A stretch of 64,000 nt of DNA, taken from assembly GCA_023014365.1 (NCBI GenBank), contig JAEBUN010000019.1:682001-746000 (forward strand). The letters are read 5' to 3'. This stretch comes from Lepiota brunneoincarnata (taxonomy: Eukaryota > Basidiomycota > Agaricomycetes > Agaricales > Agaricaceae). Shown here in pieces: positions 17,180 through 61,016 of the stretch; position 1 is the first letter of the stretch; each line of letters starts with the position of its first letter. Both the position numbers and the translations under genes were made by a program. The notes under the pieces are model-generated. The model did not search any database and was not told the DNA's origin. It saw only the letters and a program-made list of their open reading frames with translations.

Positions 17180-18185
17180 CGTTGCTCTGATTTTCACGAC
17201 TCGACATGTCTCTGTTTTTCTCTTTGCAGATCCATATATGCACTTTGTAATTCGCGATGCAAAGAAATACGATGGACGTTGGGACTGTTCTCACCTTGTT
17301 GCGGTACATACATCGTCAAACAGACATGATCACTCCGGGTAGAGTCACACCTATAGTAAAGTTAGAGAGAACTAAGACGAGAGGAACAGCCATGTATTTG
17401 GCTTAGAGAACGAGTCTCCGGGGCTCATTCCTTATATACAGACAGATTTATGACAGACTAATAGTCCTTATACACGCAGCACCACCCACTGAAGATCATG
17501 CATCTCTGCAGTAGTCCTGACAATTGAGCCTATCTTTGGCCTGAGGGCTGTGTTGAGAGGATATCTGTCGAGGGTGCCTTCAGTCGCAGGGGTAGTTTTC
17601 AGTACATGGTATTACGGGTAGCCACGGCCGGCCAGATGGGTACAGGAGCTATGTACCATCAGCCAGTGGCCAATTCGGGTTTTTAACTGGGTCCTGAAGG
17701 GGAAAATGGGGCGGATGAAATAAGAGGTTACGGGGGAACATGATCAAGAGGTCCCAGTTCAAGGAGAGTGCCAAGTTCTTCCCATCCGGGGGTATATATG
17801 TAGCGGATAGCTCGAGTGATCGGAGAGTAGGATAGACGTCCAATATGAGGCCATTATGAGGCATGAATGGGAGGGTCCGGAACCTGCTCAGCCTCGGAAG
17901 GTTTCAAGAGACTCGGGTTTGTTCATAGGAGTGGCTTTTGATACAGTGGCATAACTTACTAGACCCAGTCCATATCTATGCTACCCTCAGGCTCGGACCG
18001 TGGTATTTATCCCAATATTATAAGGCAAAGGGTTCGTGCCCCGAACTCGAGTATCTGTACATAAACGCCGACGCTGAGGCTCAAGTGGGGACCAGGATTC
18101 CCCGACTACGGAGCTGAGAGGTGAAACCAAAATGGCTGGATCGACTTCCGGCTACTGTTTTGAGCTTCCTCACTAGGGCCCAATA
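17180..18185 (-). pseudogene. Relic of the RING ligase gene, left end of the P450 array
   Basis: Non-coding stretch with patchy similarity, on the same strand, to the RING ligase gene at 43,327-45,415. Around 17,640-17,780 it shares gcggatgaa, aagaggttacgggggaacatgatc-like sequence and gagagtgcc with 44,600-44,680. Around 18,050-18,140 it shares cggagctgagaggtgaaa with 44,895. It also closely matches 31,850-32,900, where another relic lies. No open frame survives. Confidence 0.6.
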
Positions 18186-18313
18186 AGGGGTCCCATTTAT
18201 ACAGTTTCAATTTTACAGGAAATCGAGAACGGTCGCAGTATCGATGTACGCATATGTCCAACCTGGCATTACTTCAATTCCGAGCGTCCAGATGGCCGGA
18301 AAGACGGAGTCAA

Positions 18314-20320
18314 TTACGACAATGAGCGAATCAGTCTGGCTGCTGCCTCCGAGCGTGGCTTGATAGAGCAGTTGAATGGCATGGGCTGTCTGACACCACA
18401 CGTCAATACCAGATAGTATCGTGCGATTTGTGCATCTGCGTACGGCTTACCTTCCAAGCCCAGTAGTATACTTGCATGTAGGTTCAATTACATTTCCATC
18501 AGCGTCCACCGCTTTCGTGACATCGAACAATGAAAGAACAGAAGCGGCGACGTGGAACATGGTTGATTCGGCGATATGTCGACCTGTGCACACCCTATTC
18601 GCGTGTGATTTGAATATGAATTCACCAGGGGGAGAAATCCCAGAAACCTACTCACCGCCTACCGAACCCAAACGTGATCTCCGAAGGATCCGTGCCGGGA
18701 ACATGCAGCTTTCCATCCTTGAGGAACCGTTCCGGTTTGACATTTCTGGCTCAAAGAATTCTGCTGGGTCGTAGAATAATGCCCTAGATATACGCCATCA
18801 GTAGCTGCCTGACAAGGAGAAATGGAGTAAGATCTCACCAGACATTAGGTATCACAACAGAGTTTGCAGGAATATGATATCCTTTATAGACATCATCGCG
18901 GAGAACTGCATGATATACCCCGAGCGGAAAGACCGGCTGCCATCTATACCTTTTGTGAAACATAGGTACGTGAAACCAAGCGTCCATGGCATACCTCAGA
19001 ACTTCTTTCAACAGCGCATTAAGATATGGCATGGATTCCATATCATTATAGTCTGGCAATCGTCCCTCGAGTACTCGATCAACTTCCTCTTGTCCTTTTT
19101 TGTACACTTCAGGGAAGCGAATGATAGCAAGGAAAAAAGAGGTGACGGCGCAAACGGTGGTGTCGGCTGCGGCTGCCGGAACAAAGAGTCAGTTAGCAAT
19201 CCTGACAAGGAAAAAGAGAGGGTGGCAAGCACCAATAAAACCCATTCCAGCTGTGTCCTTTACGAGGTTTTGTTCGGCTGGAGTAAGGCGGCCCTCGTTG
19301 AAATCCTGCTGGCAACGCGACACAAAACTGTCTGTTGAGGTCCCATTTGCCCGCGATGTACAGGGAAACTTTTAGCAAGCCACTATGGAAGAGGAAAGAG
19401 AGCTTAACGCACAATCGTCGTGAGCGCAGCATCGTAAGGTACATTCAAGCAGTCAAGCATCTCGCGCCGCAATTCCCGGACCTTGGCCTTCCAGCCTGTC
19501 CCTGGAAATCCCTCAGGGACATGGCGAAGGAAATAAAAAAGTCTCCGCAACGAACGTTCCAGGGTTCACAGCTTCGGTGACACCCTTGACTGTTTGTTCC
19601 GCCTGATCCACATAAGGATCATGTGTGGGCTTGACCTCAATGCCATATGTCATGGATATGGCGGTAGCGCCAATCATGCTACAACCGTGTGTAAAACATT
19701 AGGTACCACACAAAGACAGACTGTATATTCAGACTCACTGCCTGATGTGTGCAATGAAGTTCTGCGGCTCCGAGAGCAAAAGATTGAGGAATATGTGAAG
19801 CTTCTCTGTTTCGTGTGATTTGTGAAGGGATGTGTTAGAGGGATGAATGTATTTCTGGAACAGACGTCGCCTCTCCTTCCAGGGATCGTCATATGGCATC
19901 AAGACCATGAGCCAGTCCCATCCGACCCCATGATGATATATAACGTTCAGTCGGCTGCAGGGCTAGAAAAGGAGTTGGTACTTACAAGTCGAACATGACT
20001 CTCGAAACCGCCCTGCCTCCTCTGACTGCAAAATGACGATTGAATTTCCAGCAGCCTCAATGTAGAGAATATCAGAATCTGAAGTACAGCTGAAGGCTGA
20101 AGTCAATGAGACGCGGTTCGACAATAGACGTACTGTATTCTTTGGCCCACTTGCAGAATGTGGACCATTGATGCTTGGTGGGTAAATCGAAAAGGTTTTT
20201 AACCAAAGGGAGTTTTCTTGGCCCAGGTGGTGGCGGGAGCCGTGAACGCTTGGGTGATAGCAGCCAATAGGCCAGGACACTTAGGAGGGCCCCCAGAGCC
20301 AGATACCTGTCGTAGGCCAT
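18314..20320 (-). pseudogene. Cytochrome P450 paralogue 1 (group A), internal deletion
   Basis: Member of the array of microsomal P450 monooxygenases. The start MAYDRYLALGALLSVLAYWL gives the N-terminal anchor, followed by the proline-rich hinge LPPPPGPRKLPL. The I-helix reads AAADTTVCAVTSFFLA, with Ala in place of the usual Gly. The K-helix (NALLKEVLR), VKPERFLKDGKL-type meander and the terminal RLIRSLS are present. The sequence runs directly from the end of LQSEEA into the 27-base microexon, so the codons for the LLERRSAIYSSR stretch and an intron are deleted, and the frame breaks. An extra T in a T run near 19,540 also shifts the frame. The deletion makes a non-functional copy likely. It stops with TAA where most paralogues have TGA. 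Confidence 0.85.
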
Positions 20321-21120
20321 AGTTTCAGCTTGTCTGAATGGGGAGGAGCTGAGGGTGACTGACGATCTGCATATAAGTAACGGTCAAAGAGCGCTTCCTA
20401 CGTTCAGCCTTTTTCCCCATGGAACTTGAGTCCTCCGGGATGCTATTCAAAGTCGAACGCTCAAATGCGGGCTAATCCAGTCTCTCCGCGTTCTCCTTTT
20501 CTCCTCGCCAAATTGGACATTGAACACCGGGCCCCGAGCTTGAACGTCGACCTCAACTCAGTCGAGACCCCGGGCCTCCTCTTCGCTCGAACTTTGATTT
20601 CTGCGAAAGCAGTTTTTGTTGACCAAAACAAATAGATTGGTGATTGGTGAAAGGGCCTGCAGGACACGTGCCTTAGTTGGGAAACACATAGGAGTTCGGT
20701 CCACTGCGTATAACGCGAGCAGTGCTACAAACGACAGCTTCGGTGTTAACAACACGCCGGACTACTTCCAACTAAGGTGCAAGTGTATCCAGGATAGCGT
20801 TAATAGGAATTCAAAGATATGTTGGGCCAGTCCCCACTCAAGTATCCGGTCTTCCCGGATTCCACAGTGGCACACTTCCAACATCCCGGGCTGGAGTTGT
20901 GTTAAGGGGTCTTTCGAGCTTTTTCGTAGTAGGGACGGCTTTCCGATAGTGGTATTAGGTCGTGCTCCTCCAGTGTGGGGCTCGCAAGAAAGGCTCCCAT
21001 ATCATAGTACAGTCTTCGTTTACAGGAAGTCGAGACTATCTTTGTATTGATTGATTTACGAATACGTCACTGGTACTATTCCAATCTCAAGCCTACAAGT
21101 CATCGGAAAAGTGGAATCAA
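20321..21120. other. Gap between P450 paralogues 1 and 2 with weak duplication scars
   Basis: The 5' flank of paralogue 1 is followed by sequence resembling the 3' flank of the RING gene (43,170-43,340), for example aaggtgcaagtgtatccaggata at about 20,775 and ccggtcttccc at about 20,845. No gene is seen. Confidence 0.45.
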
Positions 21121-23213
21121 TCACGACAATGAGCGAATCAGTCTGGCTGCTGCCTCCGAGCGTGGCTTGATAGAGCATTTGAATGGCATGGGCTGTCTGA
21201 CACCACACGTTAATACCAGACAGTATCGTGCAATTTGTGCATCTGCGTACGGCTTACCTTCCAAGCCCAGTAGTATACTCGCATGTAGGTTCAATTACAT
21301 TTCCATCAGCGTCCACCGCTTTCGTGACATCGAATAGTGAAAGAACAGAAGCGGCGACATGGAACATGGTTGATTCGGCGATATGTCGTCCTGCACACAC
21401 CCTATTCACGTGTGATTTGAATGTGAATTCATCAGGGAGAGAAAACCCAGAAACCTACTCACCGCCTACCGAACCCAAACTGTGATCTTCGAAGGATCCC
21501 TGCCGGGAACATGCAGCTTTCCATCCTTGAGGAACCGTTCCGGTTTGACCTTTTCTGGCTCAGGGAATTCCGCCGGGTCGTAGAATAGTGCCCTGGACAC
21601 ATGGCATCAGTAGCTGCCTGACAGGAAGGGATGTAGGAGGATCCCACCAGACGTTGGGTATCACAATTGAGTTCGCAGGAATATGATATCCTCTATACAC
21701 ATCATCAGCGGAGTACTGCATGATAGAGCCCTAGTGGCAAGACTGGCTGCCATCTATACGCTCCTCAGGTAAATCATAGATGCGTGGGGCGACGCTGCCC
21801 CTGACGTACCTTAGAACTTCTTTCAATAGTGCATTGAGATAAGGCAGGTGTTCCATATCGCTATGTTCCGGCAAGCGTCCCTCCAAGCACTCGATCAACT
21901 TCCCTCTTGTGCTTTTTTGTACACTTCAGGGAAGCAAATGCTAGCGAGGAAAAAGGTGGTGACGGCACAAACAGTAGTGTCGGCTGCGGCTGCCAAAAAG
22001 ACGGTCGGTTAGCAATGTCGACAAGGAAAACAGAGGATCGAAAGTACCGATAAAAACCATTCCGGCTGTATCCTTTACGAGCTTTTGTTCGGCTGGAGTA
22101 AGGTGGCCTTCGTTAAAGTCCTGCTGACAACGTGACACAAAGCTGTCTGCTGAAGTCCCATTCTCCTACAATGTGCGTGGAGCTTCTTGCGAGGTGCTAC
22201 AGAAGAGGGAATACTTACAATTGCTGCGAGCGCAGCGTCGTAGGGCAGATTCAAGAAGTCAAGCATCTCACGCCGTAGTGCTCTGACCTTGGCCTTCCAT
22301 CCCGTTCCTGGAAACCCCTCAGGAATGTGACGAAGGAAATAGAAAGTCTCCACGAGAAATGTTCCAGGGTTCAAAGCTTCGGCAATACCATTGATCGTGT
22401 GTTCCGCGTGCTCCACGTGGGGATCGTGCGCGGGCTTGACCCCAATGCCGTATGTCATGGATATAGCAATGGCGCCAATCATACTGCAATCGTGTGTAAG
22501 ACATTAGGTTACCATGTAAGGATGGACTGCATACTCAGACTCACTGCCTGATGTGTGCAATGAAGTTCTGCGGCTCCGAGAGCAAAAGATTGAGGAATAT
22601 GTGAAGCTTCTCTGTTTCGTGTGATTTGTGAAGAGATGTGTCGGAGGGATGAATGTATTTCTGGAACAGACGTCGCCTCTCCTTCCAGGGTTCACTGTAT
22701 GGTATCAAAACCATAAGCCAGTCCCATCCGACCCTGCATATATTCGGTCAGTTGCAGTGTTAGAAACGAAGTTGATACCTACAGGTCAAACATGACTTTT
22801 GACAGCGCGCTGAGGGAATTTGATCATCAAAATACGAGGAACAAGCGTTCGGCAAATCTCACCGACTGGAATAGATGGCCGACCTCTTTTCCAAGAGGTC
22901 GTCGATGGCTTCCTCTGACTGCAGAATGACTATTGAATGCCCAGCGGCCTCAACGTGAAGAATGTCGGAATCTAAAGTACGGCTGAAGGAGGGAGCAAAT
23001 GGGATGTGGCACGACAACACACGTACTGTAATCCTCGGCCCATTTTGAGAATGTGAACCACTGATGCTTGGTGGGTAAATCGAAAAGGTTTTTAACCAGG
23101 GGGAGTTTTCTTGGTCCGGGTGGTAGAGGGAGCTGTGAACCCTTAGATGATTGCAGCCAATAGACTGAACCACCAACGAGGGCCCCAAGAGCCAGATACT
23201 GGGTGTAGGTCAT
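21121..23213 (-). CDS. Cytochrome P450 paralogue 2 (group A), frameshifts as read
   Basis: Full-length copy with all expected segments: anchor (MTYTQYLALGALVGGSVYWL), LPLPPGPRKLPLVKNLFDLP, DILHVEAAGHSIVILQSEEA, WKERRRLFQKYIHPSDTSLH, AIAISMTYGIGVKPAHDP, FYFLRHIPEGFPGTGWKAK, SRCQQDFNEGHLTPAEQK, an I-helix with ADTTVCAVTTFFLA, K-helix LNALLKEVLR and the terminal RLIRSLS. The heme-loop exon is present. Extra single bases occur near 21,905 (a G run after KKAQE), near 21,708 and near 21,480, so no uninterrupted frame is left as read. Given similar insertions in essential genes here, the copy may be intact in the organism. Predicted ER-bound monooxygenase; substrate unknown. Confidence 0.85.
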
Positions 23214-24286
23214 AGCTTCAACTATCCCAGCGAGGTGAGAGATGGGGGGTGAATGAAGATCGGAGTATAAAATGAGTAAGGGCTGACGGGTGTCCTCACC
23301 TCACAGGAACATCTTGACGTACTGGCACTGATACCCGCTTCCTGCATCACCCCGCCGGGAATGCCAAGTTCCTCGTTGGAAAAGCAATGAATAATGCAGG
23401 GGTGGTAGGATCGAAAAAGTGCCCTGACCGGCTATAAGGTGAAGAGATTTCACCGGACCCCAACACACACAGCGAAGAAGGTTAACAGAGCCCCAGGCCA
23501 GCTAGTTGCAGTGCAAGCGAACCAAGGATATTATGAATCTGAAAACGTAAACTATTGCATCAATAGAGGGTCCACGGCGTATGCTGGACCAGGCCGCAAG
23601 TGGTATCTCATGAAGTGCCCAGTCCTCCCGGCCCTTCCCAAATCTGACTCCGCACATCGGCTACGGGCGGTGCATTCTCACTCGCATTTGCAACCTCTAG
23701 GCCATAGGGTCCCTGACTGTCTGGGCTGACATTGTACTGGGAAGACACTATCTGGCATCTGTCATTGTGGCGCTTTCAATCGCAAGGGTCGTTTTCAGGT
23801 GGCAGCCGGTCTGCGGGGAGTTGCATGAATTAGGGACTAGACGGTAAGGTCAGATGTCCCAGTAGTCTTCCGATGCCTAATTGCTTGCTCCCTCAACCTT
23901 CCAGAGGTAGCGGATTCAACTGGGACAAGTAATCATGTAGAGCGCTTGCGGAACTTTGCCAGGTAAATTTTTTTCGAACAAGATGAGACGACAGGGGCAG
24001 TTCAGTGGATGGGTCCCGGTCGTACTTGAAGGCGGAGCCACACAAATGCTAATACCGAGGCTCGAGCGGAGGCCAGGGCTTTCTCGGCTACGGGAATTGA
24101 AAGACGAGGGCGAAGTTGGGTCAACTGCCCGCTGTTTTGAACAGCTCCACTGGGCCTTCCATTTAGATACTTGAAAGGGAGTGTTCGCATTGTATGGTAT
24201 CAGTTGACGCTAAGAGTGCACATGTATCTTTATTTATGTCGCCGGTACCTATCATGTCAATTTCGATTCCATAAGGGTGGCGTCAA
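23214..24286 (-). pseudogene. Gap with a RING-gene relic between P450 paralogues 2 and 3
   Basis: The part at about 23,440-24,180 is nearly the same as 35,995-36,690: both contain agccccaggccagc, gcaagtggtatctcatgaag and gtagtcttcc. Segments match the RING gene and its 3' flank (compare 24,000-24,170 with 44,820-44,900, and 23,490-23,600 with 43,210-43,320). It is an array unit scar without coding capacity. Confidence 0.55.
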
Positions 24287-26361
24287 TCATGACAATGAGC
24301 GGATCAGTCTGGCCGCTGCCTCCGAACGCGCCTTGATAGAATACTTGAACGGCATGGGTTGTCTGACAATACACGTAAATGACCAACGATATCGTGCGTT
24401 TGCACATGCACACCCCTCCTTACCTTGTCATACCAGTAGTAAACTCGCATGTAGGCTCAATGACATTTCCATCATCATCCACCGCTTTCGTGACGTCGAA
24501 TAACAAAAGGACAGAGGCGGCGACACGGAACATGATCGACTCTGCGATGTGTCGGCCTTGGCACACTCTATTTGCGTGACTCGAATACAAAGTCATCACA
24601 GGGAGACCAGAAACCTACTCACCTCCTACCGAACCCAAACGTGATGTTCGAAGGATCCCTGCTGGGAACATGCAGCTTCCCGTCCTTGAGGAACCGTTCC
24701 GGTTTGACCTTTTCTGGCTCAGGGAATTCTATCGGGTCATAAAATAATGCCCTAGATGTACATCAGCAGCCCGCTTAATAGGGAGAAACGTGGTGGCATC
24801 TCACCAGACGTTGGGCATCACAATGGAGTTCGCAGGAATATGATATCCCTTGTATACATCATCGCGGAGTACTGCGTGATAGACCCCAAGCGGAAGGACC
24901 GGCTGCCATCTGCACCTTCTGTGAACTATAGATGTATTGAGCGACATGTTCCTGACGTACCTCAGAACCTCCTTCAGGAGCGCATTAAGGTAAGGCATGG
25001 ATTCCATATCACTGTGATCCGGCAGCCGTCCTCCAAGCACTCGATCAACTTCCTCTTGTGCTTTTTTGTACACTTCAGGGAAGCAAATGATAGCGAGGAG
25101 AAAGGTGGTGATAGCGCAAACGGTGGTGTCAGATGCAGCTGAAAAAAATTCAGTTGGCAAGGCTGATGAGGAAAAAGGGAGGGTTGAAAGGACCAATGAA
25201 AACCATCCCGGCTGTGTCCTTCACAAGTTTTTGCTCTGCTGGGGTAAGGTTGAGATCCTGCTGGCAACGTGACATAAAGCTGTCTACTAAGGTCCCATTC
25301 GCCTGCAGTGCGCATGGAGTTGCTAGAAATTCGCTACAGAAGAGGGAATACGTACCATTGCCGCGAGTGCAGCGTCGTAAGGCAGATTCAAAAAGTCAAG
25401 CATCTCACGCCGCAATTCCCTGACCTTGGCCTTCCACCCTGTGCCTGGAAATATTTCAGGGATGTGGCGAAGAAAGTAGAATGTTTCCACGAAAAATGTT
25501 CCCGGGTTCAAAGCCTCGGCAACGCGATTGATCGTGAGTTCTGCGTGCTCCACATATGGATCTTGCGTGGGCTTGACTTCGATGCCATATGACATGGACA
25601 TGGCGATGGCGCCAATCATACTGCAACCATGTGTAAGAAACGAGGGATACCACATAAAGGCGGACCGCATATTCAAACTCACTGCCTGAGATGCGGAACG
25701 AAATTCTGGGGCTCTTTGAGCAAGTGATTGAGGAAGATATGAAGTTTCTCTGTTTCGTGTGATACGTGGAGAGATGTGTCGGAGGGATGGATGTATTTCT
25801 GGAATAGACGCCGCCTCTCCTTCCAGGGGTCACCGTACTGGCATCAAAACCATGAGCCAGTCCCATCCAACCCTACAATGCATTATGCTCGATAGGCTGC
25901 AGTGCTAGAGAGGGGGGTAGGTACTTACAATTCGAACACGACTCTCGACAATGCCCTGAGGAGCTTTGGTTACGTGAAATATGAGGAGCAAACATTCAGC
26001 AGATCTCACCGACTAGAATAGATAGCCGACCTCTTCTCCAAGAGATCATTGATGGCCTCCCCTGATTGCAGGATGATAATCGAATTTCCAGCGGCCTCAA
26101 CATGGAGAATGTCTGAGTCTGGGGTATAGTTGAAGGTAGGAGTAAACCGGAAGTGGCACGACAACACACGCACTGTAGTCTTTGGCCCACTCGGAGAACG
26201 TGAACCACTGGTGCTTGGTGGGCAAATCTAAAAGGTTTTTAATCAAGGGGAGTCCCCTTGGTCCGGGTGGTAGCGGGAGCGGGGAGCGCTTGGGTGATTG
26301 CAGCCAATAAGCCAGGAACACTTAGGAGTACCCCAAGAGCCAGGTATGCCTGATAGGCCAT
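24287..26361 (-). CDS. Cytochrome P450 paralogue 3 (group A), frameshifts as read
   Basis: The start reads MAYQAYLALGVLLS; an extra T near 26,314 then shifts the frame, after which LAYWLQSPKRSPLPLPP follows. Recognisable downstream are LIKNLLDLPTKHQWFTFSEW, the SMTYG-like SMSYGIEVKPTQDP, FYFLRHIPEIFPGTGW, the I-helix AASDTTVCAITTFLLA (Ala-Ser where group B has Gly-Ala), K-helix LNALLKEVLR, RWQPVLPLGVYHAVLRDDVY, PERFLKDGKL, FGFGRR and RLIRSLS. The FNEGR segment found in the other copies after SRCQQD is missing, an in-frame loss of about four codons. An extra G near 25,838 shifts the frame at MPYGDPW. The rest of the heme and I-helix region is open. Confidence 0.85.
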
Positions 26362-27198
26362 AGCTTCAACTATCTGAGTAGTGTGAGGTCGTTGAGGGGA
26401 GGGGGGAAAGCGGGTTGAGGTGGATGGCAATTGCAGTATATGCCAAGTACTCATTGAAACGTGGGTGCCACCCCCTCGCAGGGACATCTAAACCTTTGGT
26501 TCCCTGCGCCTGGCCTCTTCCCAAGGGAGCTTCAGCCTTCCAGGATACCATTCATAGTTGAATGCAGGGATGCTGGGTAATGAGTGAACAGTTCAGATGA
26601 ATGACCGAGATCCACCATTCTCTGACCGTTCCATTCCTCCTCTCGAAATGGAACATTAAGCATGAGTTCGAAGGTCGACTTCAACTTGACTGGGGATACC
26701 TGACCGGGCAGTGCCAGGACTAGACTCGCTACCAGTCCTTCGACTCTTTCCGTAATCAGATTTATAATGCCGATTTAGCCGAACATGCCGAAATGATTAT
26801 ATCAAAACGATGATATCATTACTTCTTTTAAAGGAAGTCGGAGACTGAAAAGAAGGACCAGGAGAAACGGACGCAGTTTGGGGCCCGCACACGAGTATCC
26901 GAGGCTAACATATTGCTCGTATTGTTACAACTAGACAAAGGTCCAACTTCCAAAGACTCGAATACATACAAACTACGACACAAGCACAGGTGTGTTCGCA
27001 GTACGGCAAAGAACAACACCAGAATTGACAGACCAACACGAGTACATTGAGCAGCGTCAGGATTAACAGGCCAGCCGGCCGTAGTTGCGGGCGAATTACA
27101 AGTCTGCGAGCATAAACCATGGTATCAATGCAACAAACCAGTGGACCCCCTGCCCTATTAGAATTATACATACTATGAATAAACCAGCATTCATATAT
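26362..27198. other. Gap between P450 paralogue 3 and the monooxygenase copy 2
   Basis: Holds the 5' flank of paralogue 3 and, at about 27,050-27,140, a block also present at 29,130-29,220 and near 43,200-43,290 (gccagc..gta..gcg..gaattacaagtct). It is read as an array flank sequence. No gene is recognised. Confidence 0.4.
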
Positions 27199-28425
27199 CT
27201 ACTGACTACTCGTACCTTTTGATTCCCCACCTGCATCCCTATGACCCACCAAAACTTCGCTGAGTCTCTTCACAATCTCAGCTACACTTTCTCCGCTAAA
27301 GAAGCTGTTCAAATTTGTCAGGGTCTTCTTGGCGTCGATGTGGGTCCCTGCAAGCATTCCCGCCCCGAATTGTTGCAGAGTTGTTGTCCAGTCTACATTG
27401 TCTTCGAAATGGGAACGGATGGCTTGGGAAAGATCTAGAGCATCTGTCAACGCTAGATTGACTCCTACTCCGGCGAAAATGTCATAAGATGTGCCTCATC
27501 ACCAATCAGGGTGACACTTAAAGGAAAATAGTGAGAATTGGACGAAAAGAACAGCTTGTGATATGACCTACCCAGGGCGAGTTTCCCACTTCACTTCAAC
27601 TGGAAGCATGTACATTTGACAGACAATAAGTAGCCCGGAAGCCCGCAACACGAAATCCTTGCTTAAGGCGTCCCAGTCGGGGTATTTGAGGTCAACGAGG
27701 GCCCGCTTCCGAAGCTTGAACATCCGCCCAATCAATGCCGCAGGTGGCAGCCCAATCCTCGTCAACTCGGACCGCAGCGTACGTCTTCACTGACCCGTCG
27801 CTGTTCCGCTGGGTTCCCAAGACGCTGTTTCCATGAAATTGATAGCATGTCCCGAGACCAACACGCGAGGCAAGATCGGGATGCTCCTCATCGACTCTCT
27901 CAACATGAGCCTCAACACAAGTGATGCCATTATAGAAAGGCTTTTCGTCTGTCAAGAGCCTTCGCACGCGACTCCATGCGCCGTCCGCACCCACGATGAG
28001 CCCAAACCCACTCTTCTTTCCACCATCTGCAAACTCGATGGTGAATTGTGGTTTGTCCTTCGTCGAGCCCTCATCCTCCGAGATTTTGACTACCTTCTTT
28101 CCCCACTCTATCACTCCATCATCCAAAGAGTCAAGGAGGATCCTATGCAAATCTCGTCTGTCGATCTCCGGTCGATCAGGAGGCATGATATCACTGCCTT
28201 CTGGGCTGAGCCCGTCATCGAGTCCGGGCCAAGGTCGAGAGAACCGCCTTGGGAGCGACTTTCACTGGATGCATCCAGCTCAAAGAGTTGGGAGGGAATG
28301 TTCTGGAGCTTGAGAAGACGGGCAAGAGTGAGGCCGCCGGGACCACCTGTAGATTAATGAGCATACGTGCAATGTCGATTCGAGCAGGGCCTACCGCCGA
28401 TGATTGCAATTCGTGGTATTGCTAT
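27199..28425 (-). pseudogene. TetX-like FAD-dependent monooxygenase, copy 2, broken
   Basis: Inverted paralogue of the gene at 7292-8615. The initiator position reads ATA instead of ATG (28,425-28,423). About 112 bases present in copy 1 (7498-7609, from SGQQAL to VWAD) are absent, which changes the frame. An extra G near 27,715 shifts the frame again. The middle (MPPDRPEIDRRDLHRILLDS through GADGAWSRVRRLL) and the end (DALDLSQAIRSHFEDNVDW through GESVAEIVKRLSEVLVG) are well kept. They show what the matching parts of copy 1 should look like. The lost start and the deletion cannot be explained by base-calling noise, so this copy is probably dead. Confidence 0.85.
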
Positions 28426-29309
28426 GGAGAGTTTTTGCGTTCTCGGTCGTAAAGCTCGAATGAAGCTGGGAAACGGTTTGATGAAAGTTGACTATGTGAC
28501 TTCGGATTTAAGGTCGCCCGCATCCGACGCCCGCTCAGGACCTGGGCACTCAGCTGATTCGCCTTCCAGCCTGCAGAAGCTGTGCTCTGCAAGGATGCCG
28601 ACGGCGTCGGTATGGGCGCGTGTCCTGATTTTGGAGTCAAACGGGATTGTGCGGAGAATAGGCCACAGCTCATATCAGCTTCTCACAGGTGTGAGTCAGA
28701 TGCATCTCACTAATAACTCGATCTATGCAGCTGCGGGGCCTTCGGAATCGGATGGGCTGATCCTTGTGGCCATGCAGCCTGACCCTGCACTCTATACCGC
28801 TTGGGAGTCTCAGAAAGCGGGAAACACCATCACTGAGTTTCTGGCCGGGGTCATATTGCAATTGTTATGCTACGTTTCGAGCTGGATGTCAATTAAAACT
28901 TTCCCTCGGAGCAGCTTTCCAGTGTCCGCGTTCAGAACAAATCATATCCACGGACGAGATTGGGCTCACATGAGGTGACCAAACCGGCTTGGTAGAGGTG
29001 TTTTATTCCACCGCCGTCGACAAAGGGGAGAGACCGAGTCGAAGTGGAAAGAGCGAGGTGAAATTGCGAAAGCACCCATGCGAGGTCGAACTGAGTGCAA
29101 TACAAGCTTGGGTGTCAGCACGAGTGATAGTGCGTCAAGAGCAGCGTTAGGATAAACGGGCAAACCAGCCGTATGTGCGGGTGAATTACAAGTCTTCGAG
29201 CATGAACCGTGACATCAATGTACAAATTTCAGTTTACAAGAGATACAGGTTCTCCGGATTTACATTAGCACCATTTCAATTCCAAATCCGCAGAACATTG
29301 GGAAATCAA
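28426..29309. repeat. 5' flank of the inverted duplication and array flank sequence
   Basis: Up to about 28,950 it matches 6784-7291 in reverse complement. At 28,937-28,948 it shows the empty site of the MITE found at 6555-6783. From about 29,130 to 29,220 it carries a second copy of the flank block found at 27,050-27,140. No gene is seen. Confidence 0.65.
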
Positions 29310-42707: not shown

Positions 42708-43326
42708 GGCTCCAAGTGTCTGTATGGAGCGAATGAAGGGGGAAGCAGGAACCGGTGGAGGTCAAGCCATAGCTATGCACAGTTGTAGGGTGCTTTACCC
42801 AACGGTTCCTTCTTCGAATCCTCCTTTCGGCTTTCTGCGCTCAGCCTCCTCCACATAGAACTTCCAGAATGTCGGTGATAGTTGAGATTGAATGTCAACA
42901 AATATATTGAATAGTGATTAATCGGCTCCTATGCGATTGCTTCCCATTTTCAGTAACAGTTCCGTCTTCTCTCCGGACCAAACTTTAAACGTTAAACGCT
43001 GAACCTTGAGCCTCGACTCAACTAGGGTTCCTGACTGAGCGTACGTACTCTGTCCTCTGTTGGCCACGAAGGTGATGAATCGTGGTAGGAAAGCCTCCCA
43101 ACCCAGTTCATAAATCCAGGTTAGGGCACATGCCCTAGTATAATACAATACAGATGGTACAACGGGAATGTGTTTGTAGTAGTACGTCAAGGGACAGCAT
43201 CGGGATTAGCAGAGTATCAGATCAGCCAGCTGTAAGTGCAAGTGAATCCAGAATATACGAGTCTGGAACATAATCCACTGCATCAATGAAAGCAGGCGTC
43301 TGCAAAGCATGTTGGACAGTGGTATT
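42708..43326. other. Gap between P450 paralogue 7 and the RING ligase gene
   Basis: Contains the 5' flank of paralogue 7 (similar to the 5' flanks at 31,590-31,700 and 35,280-35,330) and the 3' flank of the RING gene (43,170-43,326), which is the source of several blocks found in the other gaps. No gene is recognised. Confidence 0.45.
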
Positions 43327-45415
43327 TCAAGCACCGGGTCTTCCCAAACCTGCTTGACTCTCTACGTCAGCTGGTGGTGGTGGTGGTGGTGGTGGTGGTG
43401 TTGGATTTCCACCCCTGTTGTTGAAACTAATTCCCCTCAAGAACCCGGGTCTACTGAATGTGTTGCCAAGGAGCCCTCCAGGTCTGGTTTCGGTTGTCTC
43501 GGCTCCCGCAGTCCGGTTATCTCCGGTCATATCGGCAGGTGCTCGCTGAGTGTGGTCTTCGTCCGTAACATTACCTTCAACTTCCTTCTCGGGAGCAGGA
43601 GGAGGAGCAGTGGTGATGCGTAACAATGATGTATACGCTAGGGAATATCTCAGTTGTGCAGGGTGACATGGGCTACGTCTCAAAGTGACTTACGTTGACG
43701 GCAAACGGGACAAAACCATCCTTTTGCCTTCCTTTTCCGCCTTGCAGCAGTCAGAGGAACAGTGGGAGAAGCTGGAGCGGGCGCGGTGGTGGCTCCACCT
43801 TCCGTTGCTCCGGTGGCCAGCCCACCTGTTGCTTCAGCGGTTTCAGCGGCGTTGGTTGCGGGTGCTGACTCCGGAGTATGGGTGATGTTGCCACCAGCAC
43901 CGAACTCAACCATATTAAGTGCACATTCCTTACAGGCGACGAGATGCCGACAAGGGATTAGGACAACTTCACGAGATGAGGACAAACATAGGAGACATTC
44001 TGAAGAAGGGTCTTCGTCGTCAGCTGCTGCCGCCGGTGGATATGTATGTGGATCCGTTCCATTAGCTGTAGCTTGGACGTTCGCAGACGAGGTTAATCCA
44101 TAAATTTCGTGTAGTTGGAATGTGTGTGGCCCAATCTAAGCTAGGACATCAGACGAATGGCACGAGTGTAAGCTGCAATACTTACAGTCGCTTCACGTTT
44201 TACTACTTTAACGACCCAAGGCCTGTTGTCCTCGATTTCGCCGTCTTCACCAGGAGTGTTTGACCTCGTTCCAAGGCGTACAATATGAAGGAATGTAGTT
44301 TGTTCATTGGGAGACGCAAGCTCCGTTCCTTGTTCGTCGAGGGCTGCCAACCTGATGATCACGCGGATGCCTTCTTGTTCCTCCTTGTCTCTGTCCTTTT
44401 TGGCATCTTGGGCGGGAGCGGGTTCGGCATCAACAACAGCAAGCGCCGGACCCGCCACACTCCGGTTGTGGGACCGTTTCCGGAAGTGAAAGTGTTGTGT
44501 AAACCGACGACGAGAAGGACGGTTTGAGGCACCCGCCTCACCTGGGGCGGATGGTACAGAAGCCACATCAGTCGCAGATTCAGATTTGACGGGTTCGTCA
44601 AGAGGAGGATCGGATGAAGTAAGGGGTTGGGGAACATGATCGAAACGCCCAAGTTCGAGGAGAGCGCCTTCTTCTAGAGTAAGTCGTTTGCCAAACCCTC
44701 CGGATGTGACAGATTCAAAAACCAGTATTTGTGCCTGGTTACTTGCAGAGGGTATTGCGGCGGCCTCTGGATGAGTTTTCGATAAGACAACGTGGACATA
44801 AATGCTACATTTGGGTGCGTCACAGTCATACTCGAACTCAAGGCCATGTAAATGCTGATGCTGTGGATCAAGTGGAGACTGAGAATCTTCGGGTACGGAG
44901 CTGAGAGGCGAAAGGCGGAGAGTAGGTCGCTTGAGGTTTACTAGCGCTTGCAGGGTGGTCGTTGGCTGGCCGGGCTAAGAAATGGAGAGAATTAGCGATC
45001 GACGGCCAAATTAAACCTGATACGGACAGCGGTGGGACGTCAGTCGAGCTGGCCGATCGTCTGGCATCATTCGTACGGAACTGTACGCTGACGCCAGAAG
45101 GCAGTGTTCGACGGCCGACGAGGCCACGGATGCGGCGGACGACGAGGACTTATCTCCCTATGGTAGAATAAATGACCTCACCTGTTTGCTCTTTTCAACC
45201 CAACTGGTGAGGACTTCGGGAGTGAGGTCGTCAGTAATCAGCTTTTTGCGACTTGCGGTGGTTGTCCATGTCGGACCAGCAGAGGTGGGGCCGATATTGG
45301 GACCAAAGAGCGGATCCGTAGCCTTCTTATCCTTGTTGGGATTGGGAGCGATGGTATCTGGACTCGCGGCCAGGACATTAGTAGATGGCATGCCTGCCTG
45401 ACCGTTCTGTGCCAT
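43327..45415 (-). CDS. Mahogunin (MGRN1)-like RING E3 ubiquitin ligase
   Basis: Predicted ubiquitin ligase and founder of the relics in the P450 array. From ATG at 45,415 (MAQNGQAGMPSTNVLAAS) exon 1 runs to KSKQ at 45,182. After one or two short exons the sequence continues TTTLQALVNLKRPTLRLSPL, EFEYDCDAPKCSIYVHVVLS, LEEGALLELGRFDHVPQP and NRPWVVKVVKREATIGPHTF. This is the conserved MGRN-type domain before the RING. The RING reads ECLLCLSSSREVVLIPCRHL and VACKECALNMVEFG. About 50 residues of Ala/Thr/Gly-rich insert follow before WFCPVCRQPYTSLLRI. The C-terminus is low-complexity, with FLRGISFNNRGGNPT and nine prolines coded by a GGT/CAC repeat at 43,372-43,401. An open frame continues upstream of the chosen ATG to 45,658 (including SPWNRTRRLQQSQFLAHT), so the true start may lie there. 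Confidence 0.88.
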
Positions 45416-53124: not shown

Positions 53125-53343
53125 GCGAATTAAAGAGAGTGGTGCCTTGGCGGCGTAGTAGAACGGGCTAGTAGTTGGATAGTTGGTGAGTGCAGGAGCA
53201 AGGGTGAACGGGGGGTGTCACAGATTTTAAAACTCGCTGGACTTGGCGGCTGACTGAGTGTAAAAGCTATTAGCTTTACAATCAAACACAGACAAATACA
53301 ATTCTGCTGCGCAACATCATCCTTTCCCGTTCTGTAGCCATCC

Positions 53344-54349
53344 ATGTCCATCGACCCCTACCACGTAGTTCAGCAAGAGATAGCAACGTCGCTTCAAAAT
53401 GCAGGACAGCTACTATCCTCCTATCACCGAATACGAAATATGGCACGGGATGACAGTGAAGAGTTAACTTATGCACGAAATGAGGTATGTCATTTGTGAA
53501 TTCTTCAAGCCCTGCCTTCAAGCAGACCCCCCTCCCTTCCATAGCTCAAAGCCACTCTCACAACTTTAGAGGCTGACTTGGAAGATCTGGAGGAGAGTGT
53601 AAAGTATATCCACCCCTTCATATCCTCACCGACAATCTTTGCTAACCAGCCACAGGATTGTCGAATCCACAGGCGCGCGCATGTTTGGCCTAGACGATGC
53701 AGAAGTGAGCAAGCGACGGAAATACGTCAGTCATGTACGCAAAGAAATTGAGGTGCGTCCCATATCCAGCTCTGTTTACTTTCCATATCTTGACCCCGTC
53801 CTCCGCAAGTCCAGAACATGCGAGTAGAACTATCTGCAGCAGCATCTGGACGCTCACAGCCGCAGCCTTCCGGGCCTACTACACCCACATACCCACCTTC
53901 TCCGCGTGGAGGTGTCCCAGAGGACGACCAGGCTGCATGGGCACGAGAGGAGCAGCAGGTATTTTGTTGCCGCATCCTCCATCTTCAGTTCTACCTAATG
54001 CACATCTGCAGATGATGATACGACAACAGGACGATACTATGGATTCGATATCGGGTACTCCTAAATACCCTCGCCCAGCAAGCAAGCTTGATGGGACAAG
54101 AGATTGGAGAGCATAACGAGTGCGTGACATAATGTCGTCAAAACTAATTCAATAATTCCGACCCACCTCCAACTAGGCTCCTGGACGACCTAGAACGTAA
54201 CGTGGATCGGACTGATAACAAACTTGGGGATGCTATGCGCCGTATGCGCAAGCTCCTAAGAGACTCTGAAGAAAAGAGGTAGCGGATACTGTATCATCTT
54301 TCTCATAATCGTGTTAGCAGCTCTGCTGCTCGCCGTTATTTTGGTTTAA
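53344..54349 (+). CDS. TLG1: t-SNARE Tlg1 (syntaxin-6/10 family)
   Basis: SNARE acting in endosome-to-trans-Golgi transport. Exons give MSIDPYHVVQQEIATSLQNA, the syntaxin-6 N-terminal helix start, then LSSYHRIRN, LKATLTTLEADLEDLEESV, KIVESTGARMFGLDDAEVSK and RRKYVSHVRKEIENMRVELS. A proline-rich linker follows (PTTPTYPPSPRGG). The SNARE helix begins QQMMIRQQDDTMDSISGTL and continues LAQQASLMGQEIGEHNELLD, DLERNVDRTDNKLGDAMRRM. The tail anchor is SGYCIIFLIIVLAALLLAVI. Two extra bases, near 54,060 (before LNTLAQQ) and near 54,277 (before SGYC), break the frame as read. Both sit beside identical bases. Five introns are visible. The gene is divergent from the preceding membrane-protein gene, with 219 bases between starts. 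Confidence 0.93.
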
Positions 54350-54542
54350 ACCATGACCATTCCTTCGTCTTGATCAATTGATCACCAGCATCTCCCACAT
54401 TATCCAATATTTATACTTTCCATACCAACCCGGACACTCGTGTGTATTTAGACTGTTTCTTCGAGTACGCATACGTTAAACGCCAATTAATCTGTCCCTG
54501 TTCTATACCAAACCTCTTTCTGCATCCACCTTGACAGACTCC

Positions 54543-54914
54543 TCATTTCCCGCTCATTTGTAGCCTGTCCTTCCCTGGTTTTGGTATAGAGACAGCGGCA
54601 GCGACATCAGAGGATGTCATGTTGACATCCGAACCGCCAGACAGACCCTGACCTTGTTCTGTTGATGAAGCATCAGGCACCAAGCAAAAGAGCCTTCGAA
54701 TGAGGAACAACTCACTGTACGGTGACGCAACTCCCTCCTTCCCCTTTACATCTCCTATTCACGCGATACATAACCGCAAGCCCACCCACGATAGTAAGCA
54801 ACGCACGCAACCGCCTGCGTACCCCTGGTAGTGAGCCCTTGGAGTGTGTTGCGGCGGAGAGTGCTCACCATGGTCGTACCGCGGCTTCCAAAATTCTTGC
54901 TTGGTGTTGACATG
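54543..54914 (-). CDS. Possible small single-pass membrane protein
   Basis: A minus-strand start reads MSTPSKNFGSRGTTM up to a consensus gtgagc donor. A 44-base intron ending in ctaccag would join to a segment reading VRRRLRALLTIVGGLAVMYR, a basic residue cluster followed by a TM-like helix, then VNRRCKGEGGSCVTV. A second gtgagt donor and an acaacag acceptor join a last exon reading GQGLSGGSDVNMTSSDVAAA to a stop at 54,543. The phase of the first junction fits only if one base is ignored. About 85 residues; no family recognised. It is supported by splice signals and composition only. Confidence 0.35.
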
Positions 54915-55388
54915 TTCGGTGAAGTGTTGTAGAGAGAGGAATTTGTTTTCTATGTAGAGACCGACGATTATGACGTCATTCTCCGCTCATGTGATTGGAG
55001 CACCTACCAAAGGGTCATCACACTTGCATTATACCACCTGCACTGCGTTGTATGCGTCTCAGCCAATGCATACGCCCTAGCTTGGATTTTCGTACCACGA
55101 TTCCGGCCCAGTCGATCCCGACGAGGAACCTGGCACGCCTGGCCGCATATCTCCGATTGAGCTGGGAGTCAACCTCGAAGCTCGAAGATCCACCTGAAGG
55201 AACGGTGAGCGGATGGTATATCCGGCACCCACTTGTGAACGGCCATTCATTGAAATTTCAGCATTTATGTAACTGTGATTGACACCCTGTGAAAACTGAG
55301 CCACCCTGTCGAAGCCGCACCCTATTAATGCCCCACCGATTATCATTCACCCACCCCAGTCCCCGATCGCACCCGGACAACTGAAGCT
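54915..55388. other. Gap upstream of P450 paralogue 8
   Basis: No gene is recognised. It should contain the promoter of the first plus-strand P450. Short open frames on both strands lack motifs. Confidence 0.3.
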
Positions 55389-57462
55389 ATGGCCTATGGC
55401 TCTTATCTGACTCTTGGAGCCCTCCTCAGTGCTCTCACCTATTGGCTGCGATCATCCAAGCGTTCCCAGTTGCCACTACCACCTGGACCAAGAAAGCTTC
55501 CCTTGATCAAAAACCTTCTCGACTTGCCCACCGAACGCCAGTGGTTCACGTTCTCCAAGTGGGCCGAGGATTACAGTGCGTCTCTTGTCGTACTAATTCC
55601 TGTCTGCTTTAACTGTACTGAATCAGATACCGACATTCTCCACGTCGAGGCGGCTGGTAACTCAATCGTCATTCTGCAATCAGAGGAAGCTGTGAATGAA
55701 CTCTTGGAAAGGAGATCCGCTATTTATTCCAGCCGGTGAGCGGCATTGTTGAAATTATGGCTCTCGTATTTCAATAACCTGGGACTTAAGGGCAATGTCA
55801 AGAGTCTTGTTTGAATTGTAGGCATCGTTTTCCGGTTTTACAACTGATTGGTCACATATGTTTACAGGGTTGGATGGGACTGGCTCATGGTCATGATGCC
55901 ATACAACGAACTTTGGAAGGAACGGCGTCGTGTGTTCCAGAAATACATCCACCCCTCCGATCCGTCTCTCCACAGATCACACGAAACAGAGAAACTTCAT
56001 ATCTTTCTCAATCTCCTACTTGAGGAGCCCCAGAACTTCATTACACATATCAGGCAGTGAGTCTAAATATACACCTCGGAGCCTACCCAGTATCTCATGA
56101 ATGGCTCCAGTATGGTCGGCGCTATCACGATATCCATGACATACGGTATCGAAGTCAAGTCCATACATGACCCTCACGTAGAGCAGGCGGAACACACGAT
56201 CAATAGGCTCTCAGATGCTTTGAATCCCGGAACTTTTCTCGTGGAAACTTTCTATTTCCTCCGCCATATCCCTGAAGGATTTCCGGGAACAGGCTGGAAG
56301 AATAGGATCAGGCAATTGCGGCGTGAGATGCTTGACTTTCTGAATTTGCCATACGATGCCGCGCTCGCGGCAATTGTGCGTACTCCCTTCCCCTTTCTGA
56401 AGCGGCTTTATAAGAGCTCTATATGCGTGGCAGGCGAATGGGACCTCAACAGATAGCTTCGTGTCACGCTGCCAGCAAGATTTCAACGAGGGTCGCCTTA
56501 CTCCAAGCGAACAAAAGCTTGTAAAGGATACGGCTGCACAGGTTTTCATAGGTGCTTTCCACCCTCTCTCTTTGTCTCATCATCTTGACAAAATGAATTT
56601 TCTTTGGCAGCGGGAGCTGACACTACTGTATGTGTCGTCACGACGTTTTTCCTTGCTATTGTTTGCTTCCCTGAAGTATACAAAAAAGCGCAAGAGGAGG
56701 TCGATCGAGTGCTTGGGGGACGTTTACCGGATCACAGCGATATTGAATCCATGCCTTATCTTAATGCCCTGTTGAAGGAGGTCATGAGGTGCGTCGGGGA
56801 TACGTCGTTTCACACATCTGTGCTTCACGGAGGGGGATATAGATGGCAGCCTGTCTTGCCGCTTGGGTTCTACCATGCAGTACTACGCGATGATGTGTAT
56901 AAAGGATATTATATTCCTGCAAATTCTATCGTGATACCTAACGTCTGGTGAGATATTTCCATTTCTCCCCTTGCATATCAGGCAGCTGATGATATATATT
57001 TAGGGCATTGTGCTACGACCCAGTAGAATATCCTGAGCCAGAGAAGGTCAAACCAGAGCGATTCCTCAAGGATGGGAAGCTGCATGTTCCAGGCAGGGAT
57101 CCTTCTGACATCACATTTGGGTTCGGTAGGCGGTGAGTAGACTTCCGGTTCCTTCTTCCTAGATGAATTCATATTTAGATCACGCGAATAGGGTGTGCCA
57201 AGGTCGACATGTCGCAGAGTCGCTCCTGTTTCATGTTGCCTCCTCTGTCCTTTTACTGTTCGATATCACGAAAGCGGTAGATACCGATGGAACTGTGATC
57301 GAACCTACATGCGAGTATACTACTGGTCTTGGAAGGTAAGTGTGTGTAGACGTATGGTATTGTCTAGCACTAACATGTGGTGGAAGACAACCTGTGCCAT
57401 TTAAATGCTCCATCAAACCGCGCTCGGAGGCCGCAGCCAGACTGATCCGTTCATTGTCGTGA
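55389..57462 (+). CDS. Cytochrome P450 paralogue 8 (group C), open in all exons
   Basis: First gene of the plus-strand block and apparently intact. MAYGSYLTLGALLSALTYWL anchors it in the ER; SQLPLPPGPRKLPLIKNLLD and TERQWFTFSKWAEDY follow. DTDILHVEAAGNSIVILQSE, LLERRSAIYSSR, a 27-base microexon (AMSRVLFE), VGWDWLMVMMPYNELWKERR, QKYIHPSDPSLH and HMVGAITISMTYGIEVK come next. The I-helix is AGADTTVCVVTTFFLA, ExxR is KEVMR, and HAVLRDDVYKGYYIPANSIV, YPEPEKVKPERFLKDGKL and FGFGRR spliced to VCQGRHVAES give the meander and heme loop. It ends RLIRSLS, about 510 residues. Glutamine after the heme cysteine is unusual but shared by many array members. Substrate unknown. Confidence 0.93.
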
Positions 57463-57887
57463 CTGATCTCCCCTGGCCGGTGAACCTGAACCAGGGACTG
57501 TGATGTAGTACCAGTTATATCTCTAATATATAACCGCAGAAACATACGTACTCCCAGCCTCGATTTCCTGTACCTTATTATACAATGAGATGAGAGCCTT
57601 TCCCGTGGGTACCGTAGCAATAATTCAGATGGAGAGGCTCAAAAACAGCAGGCGGTCGACCTGGTCGAATATTCCGGGTCTACACATGAGCCTCGGCGTT
57701 CAACGTTCATTAAGTAGGGTTGATTTCGGACCCGGCGCGTTCACACACTTATGAACCGATTAATCAATAGTCAATATTACAGCGTTCAACCCTCAATACT
57801 CAACCATTCAACTTTGACCGGCATCGGAAAGTGTGTTGTGTGATTCTTTCATACGCCCCTCCATCCAGCACTCGGGCAGTCAAAACT
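57463..57887. other. Gap between P450 paralogues 8 and 9
   Basis: At about 57,630-57,660 the string gaggctcaaaaacagcaggcg matches in reverse complement the block next to the relics in the minus-strand array (about 32,880 and 18,160). It marks the same unit boundary. The TATA-like or promoter part for paralogue 9 is not evident. Confidence 0.4.
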
Positions 57888-60066
57888 ATGGCTTATGGCC
57901 ATTATCTGGCCCTCGGGGTCCTCCTCAGTGCTTTGGCCTATTGGCTGCGTCCATCCAAGCATCCCCAGTTCCCACCTACCACCCTGGACCAAGAAAACTC
58001 CCCTTGATTGGAAACCTTCTTGATTTACCCGCCGAGCGTCAATGGCTCACATTCTCCAGGTGGGCTGAAGATTATAGTACGTGTGCTGTCGTACCACATC
58101 TCACTGGCTGGAACCTTCAGCTGTTACCTCAGGATACCGACATTCTCCACGCTGAGGCCGCTGGAAATTCAATAATTATCCTGCAGTTAGAGGAAGCCAT
58201 CAATGACCTCTTGGAGAGGCGGTCTGCTATCTATTCTAGCCGGTGAGATTTGCTGGATGTTTCGTTGTCGTAGTTCAGTAACCCAGGTTCTCCAGGACGG
58301 TGTCGAGAGTCATGTCTGAATTGTGGGTACTACTTCCTTCTCTTCTTCTGCAGCTCTGACCAACCATGGGTTATGACTAGGGTTGGATGGGACTGGCTCA
58401 TGGCCATGATGCCATATAATGAATTTTGGAAGGAGAGGAGACGTTTGTTCTAGAAATATATCCATCCTTCCGACCCGTCTCTCCACCGTTTACACGAAAC
58501 AGAGAAACTTCATACCTTCCTCAATCTATTGCTCACGGAGCCCGAGAACTTCATCGCACATATCAGACAGTGAGTACGAACATGCAGTTTGGAGCGCACC
58601 TGGCAGTATCTTACACATGGCTGCAGTATGGTCGGCGCTATCACGATATCCATGACATACGACATCAAGGTCAAGCCCACACACGATTCTTATGTAGAAC
58701 GGGGGGAGCGCACGATTAACGGGACTGCCGACGCTTTGAATCTTGGAACTTTCCTCGTGGAGACTTTCTACTTCCTTCGCCACATTCCCGAGGGATTTCC
58801 GGGGATGGTTTGGAAGACCAAGGTTAAAGAGTTGAGGCATGAGATGCTTGGCTTCTTGAATTTGCCTTACGACGCCGCACTCACTGCAATCGTACGTACT
58901 CCCCCCCCCCTCCCTTCTGAAGCGGCTTTTTAAAGCTCAATATACATCGTAGGCGAATGGGACCTCGACAGATAGCTTCGTGTCACGTTGCCAACAAGAT
59001 TTCAACGAGGGTCGCCTTACTCCAAACGAACGAAAGCTCGTAAAAGATACAGCTGCGCAGGTTTTCGCTGGTACTTTCGACCTTCTCTCTTATTCCATCG
59101 CCATTACAAACTGATTTTTTTGGTAGCGGGGACTGACACTACTGTTTATGTTGTCACAACGTTTTTCCTTGCTCTTATTTGTTTCCCTGAAGTGTATAAA
59201 AAAGCACAAGAGGAGGTCGATCGAGTGCTCGGGGGACGGCTGGCGACTCACAGTGATATGGAATCTATGCCTTATCTTAACGCGCTGTTGAAGGAAATTC
59301 TGAGGTACATCAGTGACTCTATGTTCCGGATGTTTATACTTTACAGAGGAAAGCATAGATGGCAGCCGGCTGGGCCGGTTGGATTTTATCATGCAGTAAT
59401 CCGCGATGATGTATATAAAGGGTATCACATTCTTTTATTCATCGCGCTCTCTTTTTACACGGACCCAAGCCCCTAGACCGTTTCGCCGGTCTGACTATTT
59501 ATCAGTCATTTTCGTTGCTAACGAAGAACTCGTTTTACAACCTAACGGCTGGTGAGATCTACTATTTCGCCCCTTCTTTAACAGCCGCTGATGATATATA
59601 AATAGGGCATTATGCTATGACCCAGCAGAGTTCCCTGAGCCAGAAATGGTCAAGCCAGAACGGTTCCTCAAGGACGTAAAGCTGCATGTTCCAGGCAGGG
59701 ACCCTTCAGACATCAATTTTGGGTTCAGGTAGGAGGTGAGTAGACTCCTAGGTTTCCTCTTTAATGACTTCATATTCGGGTAACGCGAATAGAGTGTGTC
59801 AAGGTCGACACGTCGCAGAATCGATCTTGTTCCACGCCGCCTCTTCTGTTCTTTCGTTGTTCGATATCACGAAAGCGGTAGGTGCTGATGGAAATGTGAT
59901 CGAACCTACACGCCAGTATACTACTGGTGTCACAAGGTGAGTGATGCGTAGACACACTGGTGGTGCCCGGGTATTGACGTGCACTGGAAGGCAACCTATG
60001 CCATTCAAATGCTCTATCAAGCCGCGCTCGGAGGCAGCAACCAGATTGATTCGCTCCTTGGCGTGA
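57888..60066 (+). pseudogene. Cytochrome P450 paralogue 9 (group C), stop codon and inserted block
   Basis: MAYGHYLALGVLLSALAYWL starts the copy; two extra C in the LPLPPGP hinge shift the frame. In the exon with WKERRRLF the next codon is TAG where relatives have CAG, then KYIHPSDPSLHRL continues. ITISMTYDIKVKPTHDS, FYFLRHIPEGFPG, SRCQQDFNEGRLTPNERK, I-helix GTDTTVYVVTTFFLA and KEILR are kept. After DDVYKGYHI the 20 or so bases for PANSIV are replaced by about 100 unrelated bases (59,430-59,530) that bring stops. An extra A occurs in the heme-loop exon near 59,727. With a nonsense codon and an insertion, this copy is very probably a pseudogene. Confidence 0.87.
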
Positions 60067-61016
60067 CTGATTCCAAGTTTCCGATGAATCTGAAGGCCTG
60101 GAAATATAACAGCACCAGCAACATCCTAGTACAGACTCAAATAGGGAGATAGTTGTATTCTCAGTCTTAATTTCCTGTGAACCGGAACTGTACTATGAAA
60201 TGGGAGTTTGTGAGTACCACGGTGGGACATCCAGTAGGGGAGAGGCCCAAACCAGCAGGCGGTTGACTTGACGTAAGGATTTGAAGACGGAGATCCAGTA
60301 AACTAACCGGAATTTTTTTATCACCAGTGGATGAATCTAACGTGGAGCGATCTCCCAGGCCGGCGGACCCGGCTATGTACTGTACCTTAATATATATGTG
60401 CGGAAAACGCAATCCAAGCTAAGGACAGGGCCTGATCTTAGGCTGCCCACACCGAGACAATCGAAACCAGACACAACACATTCGGCTGGCCCCCGGTGTC
60501 TTGAGGGGAACAGCAGGAGTGGAAATTCACCACCACCACCGCCACCACCGCCACCAGTTGACGTGGGCCTGGCGCACCGCCCGCCTACTTTTCATTGCGC
60601 GACACTAAGCACGTACTTTATCTCGGATTTTCGATCACTAGATTCATTTTGATTGGTCCTCCTGCCACGATCCACCACTTTCGCTATCAAATAGAGGACA
60701 GGGGACTTGGGACTTGGAACGCTCGGCCAGGTGTCTCGATTGAGTCACGGATAGCGCTCATTATTCAAAGTCCAGCGCTCAGCATTTAAAGTCCGATCTG
60801 GAGAGAAGGGAATGGTGATAGAATGGACAGGAGCAATCGTATATCCACTGAGTTACCATTAGTCAACATACTTTCCGGCATTCAGGGCCAAGCAGAGTAG
60901 TACCTAAAGTAGTGCCTGTTCAGGTGAGGTGCGACCCTATAACTGTGCGCATTTAATACCTGACCTACGGGTTCATCGGCTTCTCGGTCACCTCATCCCT
61001 CCCCAATCTCCTCGTT
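60067..61016 (+). pseudogene. Gap with a relic of the RING gene 3' end, plus strand
   Basis: At about 60,498-60,560 the sequence gtcttgaggggaac, ggagtggaaattca, a CCACCACCG repeat and ccagttgacgt follows the sense strand of the RING gene end (FLRGISFNNRGGNP, poly-Pro, ADV). At about 60,240-60,285 the unit boundary block with aaaccagcaggcggttgac occurs. So the plus-strand array contains the same scar as the minus-strand one, in the same orientation relative to the P450 genes. Confidence 0.65.

Follow-up and report, generated by a model that had tools for sequence, protein, structure and literature searches.

In the human RCCX module (STK19-C4-CYP21-TNX), a tandem unit bearing a cytochrome P450 (P450) gene, duplication has cut the neighbouring genes: STK19B retains no more than the final 914 bases of STK19, TNXA is a truncated copy of TNXB, and the units undergo unequal crossover and gene conversion (PMC8362596). 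The F3'5'H array of grapevine contains full-length, frameshifted and fragmentary P450 copies, and its block duplications, ~35-55 kb in size, were ascribed to unequal crossing-over (PMC3091711), while local duplication was given as the source of the tandem P450 clusters, the largest with 11 genes, in Phanerochaete chrysosporium (PMC1184071). In the available passages of the latter two papers, neither a repeated truncated neighbour gene in the gaps (grapevine) nor one that marks the unit (P. chrysosporium) is described. Here we analyse a P450 array of the basidiomycete Lepiota brunneoincarnata whose gaps hold decayed pieces (relics) of a RING ligase gene. The window, a stretch of 64,000 nucleotides, covers positions 682,001-746,000 of contig JAEBUN010000019.1 (C13) in a genome of 55.6 Mb and 95 contigs. 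With a probability that we put at about 0.9, one duplication broke inside the RING gene, and the resulting unit, a P450 gene plus a headless RING gene, was then amplified.

Judged by the features tested, the array belongs to the same kind as RCCX: it clearly exemplifies a known type of duplication scar and shows no new mechanism. The sequence-only reading had held that a ubiquitin-ligase fragment used as the spacer of a P450 array was undescribed; as a kind, it has a precedent in RCCX. There are differences, as far as the available part of the RCCX paper goes. RCCX has one to three segments, whereas the present array has at least 14 P450 copies in units that are short, also in comparison with the grapevine blocks; it is strongly diverged and partly inverted, most of its relics are decayed, and the gene that was cut is a RING ligase. 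None of the literature matches listed (e.g. the best 20 of 190 and 10 of 917) concerned RING relics in a P450 array, which is weak evidence that no such paper exists. The locus is of interest because the relics, as a scar, identify the breakpoint of the founding duplication and allow the duplication history to be traced in cases in which the P450 bodies yield a different tree; compact and well preserved, it illustrates the start and growth of an array of fungal P450 genes.

One intact donor gene stands at the end of the left arm of the array, which comprises copies P1-P7 on the minus strand (18.3-42.7 kb); the right arm within the window comprises P8-P10 on the plus strand (55.4-63.1 kb). The spliced model of this RING gene has neither frameshift nor stop, and its product matches PF13920 (C3HC4 zinc finger) over the cut-off, a finger by which it is predicted to be a RING E3 ligase. 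It falls with the PF13920 group of MGRN1/RNF157-like RING proteins of Agaricomycetes, one Pleurotus member of which is so named. When the genome was searched at the DNA level with the RING gene (43,327-45,415), it returned itself and four pieces, all of them relics of the window, and no further match; by this search it is the sole copy. RING-derived sequence was recovered, exclusively on the sense strand, in all six gaps in which it had been noticed by eye, and its blocks are collinear with the donor, so that order and orientation relative to the P450 genes are those of the intact gene (Table 1). The P2-P3 and P5-P6 gaps are 79% alike over ~846 bp, and the relic pairs P1/P5 and P3/P6 have insertions or deletions in common that are without counterpart in the RING gene. 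On the basis of this pairwise likeness and these common changes, the relics were assigned to class a (P1, P5), class b (P3, P6) and class c (P7 alone). In the P5 relic, RING 43,556 is fused to promoter position 43,007; the P6 relic is also matched by the class a profile (E 0.00025); and the P7 relic retains RING 44,589-44,526 at 84% and, weakly, 43,389-43,329. The stretch between the RING gene and P7, matched in the P4-P5 gap, was copied along with the unit. Two candidates were set aside: RING matches near 11.8 and 12.1 kb represent a CCA repeat, and a promoter match at P1 (17,131-16,899) was circular, so that no claim is made from it.

The relics share a breakpoint inside exon 2 of the RING gene. 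Segments of the gene were compared with the 260 bp 3' of each of the 14 P450 stops and scored as Z against shuffles. Over the five relic copies, the segments 45,415-45,101, 45,100-44,975 and 44,974-44,919 gave summed Z of -0.8, -0.6 and -0.1, respectively, the highest single flank among the 14 reaching 2.3; the start of exon 2 (44,974-44,919), which had seemed possibly homologous by eye, thus fails against shuffles. The adjoining segment 44,918-44,830 gave a summed Z of 14.7 (P1 15.7, P3 6.4, P5 13.0, P6 7.2, P7 0.8), with 3.8 at P8, 2.4 at P9 and -0.3 to 1.3 at the other seven. The cut at 44,918 was chosen from the alignment; in an unchosen scan by 30-bp windows, the summed score rises at 44,920-44,891, owing to P1 and P5, while P3 and P6 rise from 44,880 and P7 at 44,850-44,811. 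Earlier scores of P1, P3, P5 and P6 with a combined profile were partly circular, as these rows were inside the profiles. This circularity is removed by class a and class b profiles built separately, with the RING gene left out and 60 bp of P450 flank retained, which leaves the edge free. The match to the RING gene begins at 44,913 for class a (E 4e-15) and at 44,912 for class b (E 1e-10), in either case in the column at which the retained P450 flank stops; across the edge, each profile also matches the P450 flank of the other class (E 8e-11 to 7e-9). With the class a profile, P7 is matched at 40,476-40,414 and 40,412-40,352, with a deletion of ~60 columns between; it follows the P450 flank ~10 columns beyond the edge, to 40,414, and therefore crosses the same edge. 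The pre-edge flank is also present behind P2, P8, P9, P10 and P12 and absent from the RING gene, and hence belongs to the P450 gene.

These data bear on the ways in which RING pieces could have come to lie in so many gaps. Each P450 duplication might have broken the RING gene on its own, or pieces might have been inserted separately, and the retention of different gene parts in each relic would suit such independent captures. However, classes a and b share both an edge, to within 1-2 bp, and the P450 flank that precedes it, P7 crosses that same edge, and insertions or deletions in common link P1 to P5 and P3 to P6; we therefore regard repeated capture as highly improbable. It is hardly credible, too, that the relics were several once complete RING paralogues, co-duplicated with the P450 genes, which lost their heads later: the missing head is the same in both relic classes, and so is the base at which they adjoin P450 flank. 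Leucoagaricus does have two RING proteins, on contigs of differing length, but these are near-identical by eye and look like two haplotypes.

The relics might instead have been retained for a function, for instance as spacers that regulate the P450 genes, or as non-coding RNA, since close relic pairs differ less than the 4-fold sites of the P450 genes of the same units. In the two close pairs, however, the relics evolve without coding constraint, their divergence being even over codon positions whereas P450 pairs diverge mainly at third positions; the other eight of the ten relic pairs, partly unalignable, diverge by 0.38-0.57 at each codon position. Moreover, different parts were lost in each relic, two of the seven left-arm copies (P2, P4) have none, intact P8 has a trace at most, and behind intact P12 neither the flank tests nor the profile scan detected any. 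Next to the P450 start, it is the former intergenic stretch that has been kept and not RING coding sequence. A function of the relics is thus very unlikely. As to P4, a monooxygenase-like gene (FAD_binding_3, PF01494, barely over the cut-off) at 6784-8681 of the window has an inverted copy, 84-91% alike, at 27159-28941, inside the array between P3 and P4; the arrival of this copy may have removed the P4 relic.

A single break followed by amplification would have proceeded as follows. In the ancestor, a single RING gene would have been the immediate upstream neighbour of one P450 gene, with both in the same orientation. The segment that was then duplicated in tandem would have run from within RING exon 2 (~44,913) to ~180-190 bp beyond the P450 stop, taking in the remainder of the RING gene and the intergenic stretch, so that the new copy began as a headless RING gene fused to the 3' flank of the first P450 gene. 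The duplicated unit would have supplied homology for unequal crossing-over and hence for further tandem units; a pair of units, of classes a and b, may next have been duplicated as a block, and the inverted arm was probably founded by a unit that already carried the junction. The headless copies, having no start of their own, would have decayed by substitution, deletion and insertion, while the P450 bodies presumably remained longer under selection and exchanged sequence. The last step would explain why bodies and relics disagree. Between P5 and P7, divergence is low in the bodies (0.08-0.16) and high in the relics (0.31-0.55), whereas the relics of P1 and P5 (0.10-0.16, with one poorly filled bin at 0.34) are closer than their bodies (0.18-0.30); P1 and P2 differ by 0.03-0.07 at the 3' end of the body and show no similarity beyond it. 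The protein tree contains the groups P4/P5/P7, P8/P9/P10 and P1/P2/P3/P6, with Macrolepiota P0122 placed neither firmly inside nor beside the array copies. P1 thus groups with P2, P3 and P6 by its body but with P5 by its relic. Exchange of sequence among P450 bodies is the simplest reading of these patterns, in which the relics would keep an older record than the bodies. That the unlike spacers confine gene conversion to the bodies, each spacer being an unconverted record of unit descent, is conceivable but doubtful; if true, a decayed ligase gene would shape the evolution of the array while coding exchange continues.

Some observations weigh against amplification in its simplest form, in which one unit spread on both sides of an island. 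The single origin is supported, but along the left arm the classes follow one another as a, b, a, b, c, P2 and P4 being interspersed without relics; this succession fits the duplication of a two-unit block, and the P450 bodies seem partly homogenised. The shared edge supports the left side; the right side is weaker. There, the RING end in the P9-P10 gap is firm: the whole-gene comparison of this gap includes the CCA repeat, and the repeat-free result comes from a separate test with RING 43,520-43,406. The 3' flank of P8 probably carries a trace of the same junction, which the combined profile detected at E 0.0015 in 114 kb, whereas class a profiles on their own gave no better than E 0.13-0.21. 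A score as high as that of P8 occurred in four of 1,500 null windows, a set from which the P8 site had not been excluded; the four were taken to be that site, because nothing else outside the left arm exceeded 5.4 bits in the 114-kb profile scan.

Table 1. The RING gene, its relics and the P450 copies (window coordinates)
Feature	Position	Strand	Remarks
RING gene, intact	43327..45415	-	591 aa, 4 exons
RING gene introns	45,181-44,975, 44,185-44,136, 43,693-43,638	-	spliced model
RING-P450 intergenic stretch, presumed P450 promoter	42708..43326	-	81% over 253 bp in P4-P5 gap
Edge of duplicated part, RING exon 2	44911..44918	-	from free-edge class profiles; uncertain by a few bp
Relic class a, 3' of P1	17211..18131	-	77% alike to P4-P5 relic over 631 bp
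Relic class b, 3' of P3	23440..24114	-	
Relic class a, 3' of P5	31713..32863	-	most of last RING exon deleted
Relic class b, 3' of P6	36047..36617	-	includes RING 3' flank 43,287-43,204
Relic class c, 3' of P7	39280..40424	-	~60 bp deletion just past junction; own insertion
RING C-terminal coding end (43,502-43,364), P9-P10 gap	60452..60564	+	firm
Probable junction trace, 3' of P8	57662..57728	+	~203 bp past P8 stop, right orientation
P1	18314..20320	-	disrupted: 2 frameshifts, stop, ~94 bp missing near intron 2
P2	21121..23213	-	disrupted; no 3' relic
P3	24287..26361	-	disrupted
P4	29310..31391	-	disrupted, 6 frameshifts; no 3' relic
P5	33046..35125	-	intact model, 508 aa
P6	36789..38782	-	disrupted: stop, deletions
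P7	40630..42707	-	adjoins intact RING gene; one 1-bp frameshift in A-run
P8	55389..57462	+	intact model
P9	57888..60066	+	disrupted
P10	61017..63091	+	disrupted
P11	65,848-67,934 (outside window)	+	
P12	83,709-85,783 (outside window)	-	intact model
P13	90,259-92,348 (outside window)	+	
P14	93,750-95,832 (outside window)	+	

Relatives of both genes occur in other genera and are in keeping with a mushroom of the Agaricaceae type. The closest RING proteins are those of Macrolepiota (69% identity) and Leucoagaricus (66-68%), and the closest named P450 relatives belong to Leucocoprinus, Macrolepiota and Leucoagaricus. In Macrolepiota, the longest contig given is 68,388 bases for both RING P0001 and P450 P0124, and in Leucoagaricus it is 89,279 bases for both RING P0003 and P450 P0125, figures in which distance and orientation are not visible. 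Because these figures are equal for RING and P450, the two genes are presumably linked in both relatives. In the protein tree, P0124 and P0125 fall in the sister group of the array copies, to which they are 59-66% identical. The P450 subfamily also appears to be in tandem in Leucocoprinus birnbaumii, where P0121 and P0127 (NP233_g9884, g9885) have consecutive locus tags and the same longest contig of 16,624, and where the P0121 model, of 869 aa, spans two P450 stretches.

The P450 copies were counted from a DNA search with P7, in which only the best candidates were scored; its 17 pieces, every one on C13, represent at least 14 copies, a lower bound. P5 matches PF00067 (9e-59, 200 bits), and its model contains FGFGRRVCQGR, which we take to be the P450 haem-binding motif. 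Four further copies of the same family, in both orientations and with P13 and P14 in tandem, lie at C13 746,001-786,000, a region (P11-P14) in which flank tests and profile scan detected no RING relics. Spliced models without frameshift or stop were obtained for P5, P8 and P12, the remaining 11 of 14 having at least one such lesion. The ratio of nonsynonymous to synonymous unshared changes is 1.2-1.7 in P1, P4, P9, P11 and P13, as opposed to 0.4-0.8 in intact P5, P8 and P12, and relaxed selection therefore looks real in these five; in P2, P3, P6, P10 and P14 it is 0.57-0.93. The frameshifts of this last group and that of P7, in its A-run, may be assembly errors. The array seems to be in recent decay: 11 of 14 copies are disrupted in their models, yet the third-position excess shows long past selection. 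One or two intron donors in each of the models of P1, P6, P7, P9 and P10 read GC and not GT, which in disrupted copies may be a model artefact. The genome DNA search showed no second haplotype of the array; elsewhere, equal or near-equal P450 matches on contig pairs (e.g. C43/C50, C20/C26, C14/C88) suggest that some contigs represent two haplotypes.
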